Source: Halomicrobium urmianum (GTDB taxonomy: Archaea > Halobacteriota > Halobacteria > Halobacteriales > Haloarculaceae). Taken from it: a stretch of 64,000 nucleotides of DNA. The position numbers were made by a program, and so were the translations under genes. The notes under the pieces were generated by a model. It worked only from the letters and a program-made list of their open reading frames with translations. It did not search any database and was not told the origin of the DNA. Below are positions 27,127 to 32,365 of this stretch, piece after piece. The DNA is taken from positions 3,286,001 to 3,350,000 of the forward strand of contig NZ_CP084090.1 in NCBI RefSeq assembly GCF_020217425.1, written 5' to 3'. How positions within the stretch are numbered: the first letter of the stretch is position 1; every line of letters begins with the position of its first letter.

Positions 27127-27603
27127 ATGCGAAATATAGAACTCCAGGGTCTTCAAACCCCACGAAAGGCCGCTTCACAGTCATCGATTACTTACGGGTT
27201 ATGTCCCGTTTGTGGAGCGGCTGTTGACGGCATCGATGCCGACGCGCGCGCCACCGCTGAGCCTTGCGGGCACGCGCTCGGAGAAGTAAGCCTTCGACTA
27301 CTCACCATGACAGACTTCCCCGACACCGACGAGCATCGCGACCACCTGCGAGACATCTACGTGCGCGCTGGCGTCGTCGAGCCAGAGCGTGTCGAGGAGA
27401 TCGCCACCGACGGCGGTCACGTCGAGCGCCAGCCCCTCCGAGAACTGGACGGTGCGACGGTTTACTACTACGACCACCGGGACTCGTCGACTCCGACACG
27501 GTCAGAGGACGTTCACGTCGAGATCTACGACGAGTGCGTTCGCCTGCGCTCGCCTGCTGACACGTGGATCCCCCGCCACCTCGTCGAAAAGGTGCTGCTA
27601 TGA
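27127..27603 (+). CDS. Uncharacterised 158-aa zinc-knuckle protein of the integrase operon
   Basis: The start is taken at ATG 27127. It contains a CPVC knuckle and a later CGH at about residues 26-50, then an alpha/beta domain (DEHRDHLRDIYVRAGVVEPE; VHVEIYDECVRLRS). An internal ATG at 27307 would give a 98-aa protein without the knuckle, and I cannot exclude that as the true start. The stop overlaps the next ATG (27600). Confidence 0.5.
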   Translation: MRNIELQGLQTPRKAASQSSITYGLCPVCGAAVDGIDADARATAEPCGHALGEVSLRLLTMTDFPDTDEHRDHLRDIYVRAGVVEPERVEEIATDGGHVERQPLRELDGATVYYYDHRDSSTPTRSEDVHVEIYDECVRLRSPADTWIPRHLVEKVLL

Positions 27604-27704
27604 ACGAGTGCCCGGACTGCGGGAGCGAGCACATCCACCCGTCGGGCGGCTGCCCGTTCTGCCCCGAGTGCGGGTGGTCGAAGTGCGGAGGTGGTCGCGC
27701 TTGA
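27600..27704 (+). CDS. 34-aa double zinc-knuckle protein
   Basis: ATG 27600 overlaps the upstream stop. Seven residues are Cys (CPDC, CPFCPEC, KC), enough for one or two zinc sites in only 34 aa. The stop TGA (27702-27704) overlaps the TTG start of the integrase, and the integrase RBS GGAGGTG lies within its coding sequence, so the two are coupled. Confidence 0.58.
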   Translation: MNECPDCGSEHIHPSGGCPFCPECGWSKCGGGRA

Positions 27705-28753
27705 GTGCGCCCGTCGAGGATCCGAGTGAGCTGTCGGTCCGCGAGGTCTACGAGATGTTCCTCGACGCGAAGCAGCTCGACTACACGGACGAGACGCTCC
27801 GCGACTACGAGACCCGCCTTCGCCAGTTCGTCGAGTGGGCCGAGGACCAGGAGGCGATCGAGACCGTCGGCGACCTCTCGGGCTGGCACCTGGAGCAGTT
27901 CAAGCTGTTCCGGCAGGGGCAGGACCTCGCTCCAACGACGATCAAGGGCCAGATGGCGGCGTGCAAGGTCTTCCTCGAGTACGCCGCCGGCATCGAGGCC
28001 GTCGACGAGATGTTGCCCTACAAGGTCAACATCCCGAAGCTGGAGCAGAGCGAGGAGACCTCCGACGTCCGCCTCGACGCCGATCGCGCGTTCCGGCTAA
28101 TCCAGCACTACCGTGATTCGCCGACTGAGTACGCCAGCGAGCGTCACGTCGCACTGGAACTGGCCTGGTTCACGGGTGCGCGGCTTGGTGCCCTCCGAGC
28201 GCTCGATCTCGACGACTACCGGTCGGACGACCAGATCCTCTGGTTCCGCCACCGGTTGCCGTCGACGCCGCTGAAAAAGAAGGAGCACGGCGAGCGTCCA
28301 GTCGCTGTTCCGGACCCCGTGTGCGAGGTGATCGACGCTTACCTGGAGGGCGTCCGCTACGACAAGCGCGACGAGCACGGTCGCGATCCGCTACTGTCTG
28401 GTCGCCAGGGACGCCCGGCGGCGTCGACGCTCCAGACCTGGGTTTACCAGGCTACGATTCCGTGCGCGGCTGCTCCGTGCCCGCACGACGAGGATCCGCG
28501 GTCTTGCGACTGGACCGCGCGCAACACTGCCAGTAGCTGCCCGTCCTCCCGATCTCCCCATCAGGTGCGTACGGGCAGCATCACCTGGCAGCTGAACAGT
28601 GGCCTCTCCTACGAGGCCGTGGCGGAGCGCGTCAACTCTGACCCTGATACGCTCCGTCGCTACTACGACAAGGCCGACGACGTTGAGCGGCTCGAGCAGC
28701 GTCGTCGGGAGTTTGTCGACCGACTGGAGTTCGATCCCGATGATCAGGACTAA
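27701..28753 (+). CDS. Tyrosine recombinase, site-specific integrase of the element
   Basis: 350 aa from TTG 27701, chosen because GGAGGTG (27687-27693) sits seven bases upstream and TTGA overlaps the stop of the mini-gene. Residues 10-105 form the SAM-like core-binding domain (MFLDAKQLDYTDETLRDYE); the catalytic domain follows with R161 (TGARLGALRAL), H287 and R290 (HQVR) and a terminal nucleophile Y321 or Y322 (LRRYYDKAD). A Cys/His insertion (CAAAPCPHDEDPRSC) before the HxxR box may bind metal. Position 68 bases before attR is the classic place for the integrase. Confidence 0.92.
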   Translation: MSAPVEDPSELSVREVYEMFLDAKQLDYTDETLRDYETRLRQFVEWAEDQEAIETVGDLSGWHLEQFKLFRQGQDLAPTTIKGQMAACKVFLEYAAGIEAVDEMLPYKVNIPKLEQSEETSDVRLDADRAFRLIQHYRDSPTEYASERHVALELAWFTGARLGALRALDLDDYRSDDQILWFRHRLPSTPLKKKEHGERPVAVPDPVCEVIDAYLEGVRYDKRDEHGRDPLLSGRQGRPAASTLQTWVYQATIPCAAAPCPHDEDPRSCDWTARNTASSCPSSRSPHQVRTGSITWQLNSGLSYEAVAERVNSDPDTLRRYYDKADDVERLEQRRREFVDRLEFDPDDQD

Positions 28754-30660: not shown

Positions 30661-32365
30661 TCAGGTCTGCGTCTGGTTGGTCGTCAGCGACGTCGACTGG
30701 CTCTGGTCCTGGTCGATGCCGTCGCCGTCGAGTTCCTGCTCCTGCTGCTGGTCGACGGTAGCGCCCTGAACCTGGCTCTGGCCCTCGTCGCCGTCCGCGC
30801 TCTGGGCGGACTCCTGCTGGACGTCGGCGCTCTGATCGGCGTCCTGCTCGTTGCCGCTACCGCCCCGGATGATCCGGTCCTGTTCCTGGTCGACGGTGGC
30901 GTCCTGGTCGCTCTGCTGGTCGGCGTCGTCGTTGCTGGCCGACTGCTCGCTATCCTGCTGGACGCTGCTGGGTGTCGGTGCCCTCGTCGACGGACTGCTC
31001 CTGACTCTCCGCCTAGTCGACGTCCTGCTCGTTCTCCGTGCCGACCGATGTCTGGCCGCTCCCCTGGCCGGCGGCCTGCGTGCCGTTCGCGTCCTGCTGG
31101 TTGCCGTCGCCGTCGTCGACCGATTGGTCCTGACTGCTCTCCTGATCGACGTCCTGCGCGGCGTCCTGCTGATTATCGTCGCCGAACGCGGCCTGTTCGT
31201 TCTCCTGGCCGGCGCTCTGGGAACTGTCGGCGTCCTGCTGGTCGTCGTCGCCGTCCGCGACGGACTGCTCCTGCTCGGCGCTCTGGTTCGCGCTCTGGTC
31301 CGACGACTGGGCGTTGCCGGCACCGGTGAGGACGACCTGCGTCAGCTCCTGCACGCCGTCGTCGTCGTTCTGTTCGGCGGACTGCGCGTTGCCGTCGCCG
31401 TTCTCGACGCTCCGGGACTGCTCGAACACCTGACCGGTGCTCTGCCCGCCGGCCTGACCGTTCCCGGCCCCGACGACCACGAGCTGGGTCTGTAGCTGCG
31501 CGACGTCGTTGTCGTTCTGCTCGGCGTCCTGCTGGTTCTCGGTCCCGTCTGCGACGCCCTGGGACTGCTCGAGGAGCTCGAGGACGCTCTGCTCGCCGGC
31601 CTGCTCATCGTCCGACCCCTCGATAACGACCTGCGTCAGCGCCTGGGCGGCGTCGTCGCCCGTCTGTTCGGCGACCTGCCCGTTGCCGTCGCCGCCCGCA
31701 ACGTCCTGGGACTGGCCGAAGCGGGACTCGACGCCCTAGTCTCCGGACTGGGACGTCCCGGTACCGAGGACGGCGACCTGTGCCGCCGTCTGGCTGACGT
31801 TCCCGCCCTGAAGCGCGATCTGGTCGGAACCGTTGCCGGATTCGAACGACTGGGACTGGACCAGATACGCCGCGGCCTCCTGCGCGGAGAGCTGTTCGCT
31901 CCCCGTTCCGAAGACGACGGCCTGCACCTGCTCCTGATCGACGTCGCCGGCCTGGGCCGCGCTCTGGTCGCCGTCGTCGCCGGCCGATTGCCGGTCCTGC
32001 GTGTAGAAGACGAGGACGCCCTCGCCCTGGACCTGCTCGTCGTCGGTGCTGTTTATCGCCCACTGATCCTGGCTCTGCAGGAAGTACAACGTCTGAACCT
32101 GCCCCTGACAGTCGCCGCCGTCGTCCTGTGCCTAGCTCAGATCGCCGGCGACTGTCGCGGTCTGGTTCTGATCGATGCCGTCGCTGCCGGTCGCGTTCTG
32201 CGTCGCGTCCTGCGCTCCGGACGTGACCTGTATCTGTCCGCACTCGTCCGTCACCTGCGCGTAACTGGTCCCGACGACCGATCCCGACAGGATCATCCCG
32301 AGCGCGAGGAGCGCGACTATCACTACCGTTCCGTGCCGTAACCCGGTTCCGTTTCTATCGGACAT
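30661..32365 (-). pseudogene. Secreted Gln-rich tandem-repeat protein with three in-frame TAG codons and a frameshift
   Basis: ATG 32365 begins a signal peptide (VVIVALLALGMILSGSVVG). The body consists of imperfect repeats of about 22-25 aa built on G-x-G-N-x-Q and spaced Gln residues (NGDGNAQSAEQ; GAGNAQSSDQ; GDGNQQDANG), like curli-type beta-solenoids. The frame is cut by TAG at 32132-32134, 31736-31738 and 31013-31015; each sits where CAG (Gln) would suit the repeat. Near 30970 the frame moves by one base and the same composition runs on to 30661. TAG is an ordinary stop elsewhere here, so decay is likelier than recoding. Confidence 0.65.

Follow-up and report, generated by a model that had tools for sequence, protein, structure and literature searches.

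A very probable unitary pseudogene of a secreted glutamine-rich repeat protein in Halomicrobium urmianum and its intact haloarchaeal relatives

Readthrough of stop codons in archaea has been established for selenocysteine and pyrrolysine only (PMC8037382). On the structural side, CsgA of Pontibacter korlensis (PDB 8c50) resembles the predicted fold of the protein family described here in its stacked β-strands every 23–24 residues. The window analysed, a 64,000-nucleotide stretch of Halomicrobium urmianum (NZ_CP084090.1, positions 3,286,001 to 3,350,000), carries one member of this family, cut by three in-frame TAG codons. From sequence comparison we conclude that the locus is very probably a unitary pseudogene of a secreted Gln/Asp/Asn-rich repeat protein, and that ordinary decay accounts for it, because the relatives keep an intact gene with its repeats conserved, and the window copy alone is both broken and less constrained.

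The repeat-protein frame extends from 32365 to 30661 on the reverse strand (Table 1). Translation of its 5' part gives a start methionine, a signal-peptide-like N terminus and Gln/Asp/Gly-rich repeats, interrupted by exactly three TAGs. An earlier note on this DNA had claimed a signal peptide and three in-frame TAGs, and the translation bears this out at the same coordinates. The frameshift that it had put near 30970 lies between the third TAG and 30950, and the C-terminal 102 residues follow in the next frame. The C terminus of the window copy is DQDQSQSTSLTTNQTQT; its counterpart in an intact relative is DQDQSQSTTLTTSQTQD. Matches to relatives cover the window frame with an E-value of 1.5e-82, which exceeds chance. 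The window protein repeats most strongly with a period of 49 residues and its relatives with one of 47, above shuffled sequence, and each period consists of two halves of about 24 residues. The 22–25-residue repeat proposed earlier therefore holds as a half-repeat and not as the full unit.

Table 1. Coordinates of the decayed repeat-protein gene, its lesions and its neighbours in the window
Feature	Position	Strand	Evidence or remark
5' part of decayed repeat-protein gene, cut by three TAGs	30970..32365	-	Homology to open frames in HArc-gm2 (G005), congener G006 and Halostella pelagica
TAG codon 78, context C-TAG-G	32132..32134	-	Gln (CAA or CAG) in six relatives
TAG codon 210, context C-TAG-G	31736..31738	-	Gln (CAG or CAA) in six relatives
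TAG codon 451, context C-TAG-G	31013..31015	-	Gln (CAG) in six relatives
Frameshift interval	30950..31012	-	Original frame closes at TAG 30952-30950
C-terminal part, shifted frame, TGA end	30661..30969	-	Matches C terminus of intact relatives
Upstream neighbour, intact: FG-GAP repeats and Gln-rich C-terminal region, 1245 aa	32531..36268	-	Same neighbour in relatives
Downstream neighbour: DUF7344 protein (PF24035), 188 aa	29880..30446	-	Similar gene downstream in relatives

The read-through translation of the window copy served only as a search query. Among 59 relatives searched, the gene is present in two same-genus genomes, HArc-gm2 and G006. Orthologues are open in Halobacteria archaeon HArc-gm2 (1097 aa), in the congener G006 on both flanks of an assembly gap, and in Halostella pelagica DL-M4 (904 aa). 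All three share with the window copy the N-terminal region, the repeats, the C terminus and the order of a three-gene cassette, in which the repeat gene stands between the gene for an FG-GAP/Gln-rich protein and a DUF7344-type gene (the profile test for DUF7344 covered the window and HArc-gm2). They differ from it in being open where complete, in being more constrained and in having more repeats; the window copy spans about 568 codons and bears four lesions. A family profile built on the first 213 positions was searched over a sample of 392 genomes of the order and matched in 12, H. urmianum and 11 others. Only the H. urmianum copy has stops inside the profile match; the other 11 genomes have no interior stop. 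Intact homologues, which the earlier note had suggested seeking, were thus found with their repeats conserved, and the alternative picture of many stops and no repeats was not seen. Within the H. urmianum genome, DNA and profile searches returned no second copy beyond short stretches. In distant family members of two further genomes (G128 and G159), the upstream neighbour differs from the FG-GAP gene, as judged on about 1.5 kb of flank.

The window copy has also lost constraint. At sites invariant among six homologues it differs in 26 of 83 cases, as against 6–10 of 63–67 for each intact lineage (Fisher p = 0.002 versus Halostella). The ratio of replacement to silent changes is 25:8 on the branch of the window copy and 10:16 on that of Halostella (p = 0.007). 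The first 540 codons of the FG-GAP neighbour show the opposite trend: here this genome differs least, with 27/195 versus 64/232 for Halostella. For the repeat gene, a comparison limited to the same four taxa yields 42/120 for the window copy and 25/103 for Halostella, a weaker signal (p = 0.11), and the gene-by-lineage contrast of 42:25 versus 27:64 reaches p = 5e-5. These counts come from parsimony on small alignments and describe a contrast, not rates. Since the neighbour runs the other way, constraint has been lost in the broken gene specifically; since the excess in the repeat gene itself is weaker with four taxa, the case rests on the neighbour contrast and the six-homologue test. The NG86 dN/dS is about 0.61 against HArc-gm2 (0.456/0.743) and about 0.19 between HArc-gm2 and G006, at high divergence. 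With GC3 still high, at 0.89, and few lesions, the reading frame of the window copy has escaped severe erosion.

All three TAGs fall on positions that encode Gln in six intact homologues, none of which has TAG there. The first site is CAA in three of the six and the second in one. This agrees with the earlier claim of a single C-to-T change from CAG at each TAG, although some relatives have CAA. Single-base changes from the present sense codons to a stop are CAG to TAG in 103 of 177 cases, and the chance that three of three stops arise from CAG is p = 0.2–0.57, depending on transition bias. With CAG as the majority route to a stop in this gene, the C-to-T pattern needs no editing. C-to-T editing of RNA or DNA, or its reverse, is the least probable of the readings that we weighed, barely to be entertained: the shared five-base context and the possible single step from CAG would suit it, but RNA editing that restores Gln would have to convert transcript U to C, and both the frameshift and the loss of constraint would be left unexplained. 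The context itself is shared, as each TAG sits in C-TAG-G (formerly CCAGG). Of the 106 CAG or TAG codons, 15 have a C directly before and a G directly after, which gives a three-of-three chance of 0.0024 for a pattern noticed post hoc, and a context-specific process may have acted at these sites. Cytosine methylated in a CCWGG context deaminates or, in some data, is miscalled. The TAGs could accordingly be methylated CCAGG cytosines miscalled as T, combined with an indel error. One C5-cytosine methyltransferase gene is present in the genome, in keeping with this account. However, twelve CAGs in CCAGG context within the same gene still read as CAG. Across 424 kb (18 spread 20-kb stretches plus the window), CCAGG is common, with some 28 occurrences per 10 kb when both strands are counted, yet no other coding-like frame is interrupted by a C-TAG-G stop. 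CTAGG is not clearly in excess either, with observed/expected values of 1.0 in the 360 kb of samples and 1.38 in the window. General miscalling at CCAGG is unlikely, and errors would leave the replacements at invariant sites unexplained; as an account of this locus, we regard an artefact as improbable by a wide margin.

Amber readthrough would have the TAGs read as Gln or another residue and yield a full-length or graded product. The repeats do continue across each TAG, and every TAG lies at a Gln position. Readthrough cannot bridge the frameshift, however, and with that lesion in the same gene recoding would need a second mechanism. Nor do the relatives, with CAG or CAA at these sites, or the weaker constraint on the window codons compared with those of the relatives, fit such a use of TAG. 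The restriction of established archaeal readthrough to selenocysteine and pyrrolysine also speaks against it. The search for an amber-suppressor tRNA or PylS that the earlier note proposed came back empty. None of 50 tRNA matches carries a CTA anticodon (48 read by ARAGORN and two intron-containing ones, Arg-TCT and Gln-TTG, by eye; the search may overlook tRNAs whose intron is long, as happened with tRNA-Trp), and PylS gave a weak match of 21.5 bits against a cut-off of 178, like most control genomes. We consider readthrough very improbable, somewhat more so than an artefact. The earlier note had taken TAG to be a normal stop nearby; it indeed ends 5 of the 32 other coding-like frames in the window. 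Since TAG ends other genes and the relatives are normal, global recoding is rejected.

Decay unites these observations. Frame-disrupting lesions, three TAGs and a frameshift, stand against open homologues; constraint is relaxed, as in pseudogenes; and the DNA and profile searches found no functional copy elsewhere in the genome, which makes the probable pseudogene unitary. In this lineage the gene has lost constraint and acquired a frameshift along with nonsense changes at three Gln codons, and its product would now be no longer than an N-terminal fragment of 77 residues. The earlier note had offered a pseudogene, amber readthrough and C-to-T editing as options, and only the pseudogene fits a copy that alone is broken and has lost constraint. 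The pseudogene was also called young. The few lesions agree with that description, but constraint has been relaxed long enough for many replacements at invariant sites. The locus should not be cited as a case of archaeal readthrough or editing.

The intact relatives are of more interest than the decayed copy. An AlphaFold2 model was built for 331 residues from the N-terminal part of the intact Halostella protein, using seven homologues alongside it. The resulting model (mean pLDDT 80.3, pTM 0.75) has strands every 23–24 residues and no helix, forming a predicted β-solenoid of ~22–24-residue repeats. An earlier prediction with all 904 residues and four sequences reached a pLDDT of 32 and was not usable. 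When comparing the model with known structures, CsgA had the best Foldseek E-value (2.4e-5), with very low Foldseek probability and TM-score. VIA-align superposed it over 163 residues at 24% identity, with a Z of 14.6 and an rmsd of 8.3. The SufB/SufD solenoids scored a higher Z of 16–17, with an rmsd of 2.9. No Pfam family, curlin included, matched P0001 up to an E-value of 1, nor P0004 and P0006 up to 10, and searching PDB sequences with the family profile gave no match. Literature searches on haloarchaeal curli or solenoid proteins gave no paper whose title and opening lines of the abstract describe the family. The term curli-like used in the earlier note is consequently apt for the fold-level resemblance in the predicted model, and not as membership of the Pfam curlin family.

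On the strength of this model, the intact protein is likely a secreted, curli-like solenoid. In the intact relatives it would most likely be exported and take up a curli-like β-solenoid fold at the cell surface, alongside the FG-GAP/Gln-rich protein. For the ancestral protein we infer a surface location, a solenoid fold and assembly. More tentatively, and with the balance somewhat against it, the family and its FG-GAP/Gln-rich and DUF7344 neighbours could constitute an archaeal curli-like surface fibre system whose main subunit has no Pfam match, the window then capturing one lineage in the course of losing that subunit. The family is sparsely distributed among haloarchaea, its solenoid model is confident and resembles curli, and its neighbourhood is kept in three relatives, which makes it a candidate archaeal functional amyloid that can be tested.

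Further observations concern the rest of the genome. The C5-cytosine methyltransferase gene overlaps one that encodes an HhH-GPD base-excision repair domain (L122 2415-4176, reverse strand, G000:C2), and the two are possibly a pair that repairs deaminated methylcytosine. The PDB relatives of the methyltransferase, which include HaeIII, HhaI and DNMT1, do not tie it to CCWGG. A second interrupted gene carries a single in-frame TGA (L050 position 2142, forward strand; G000:C1:3202142) in a long open frame with aspartate-rich, calcium-binding-type repeats (DxDxDG). Within the window, a tyrosine-recombinase-like protein is encoded at 27389-28753 on the forward strand, with PF00589 and PF02899 matches just below the cut-offs. 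A lower-GC stretch at about 18–30 kb adjoins it, and together the two suggest an integrated element beside the cassette.
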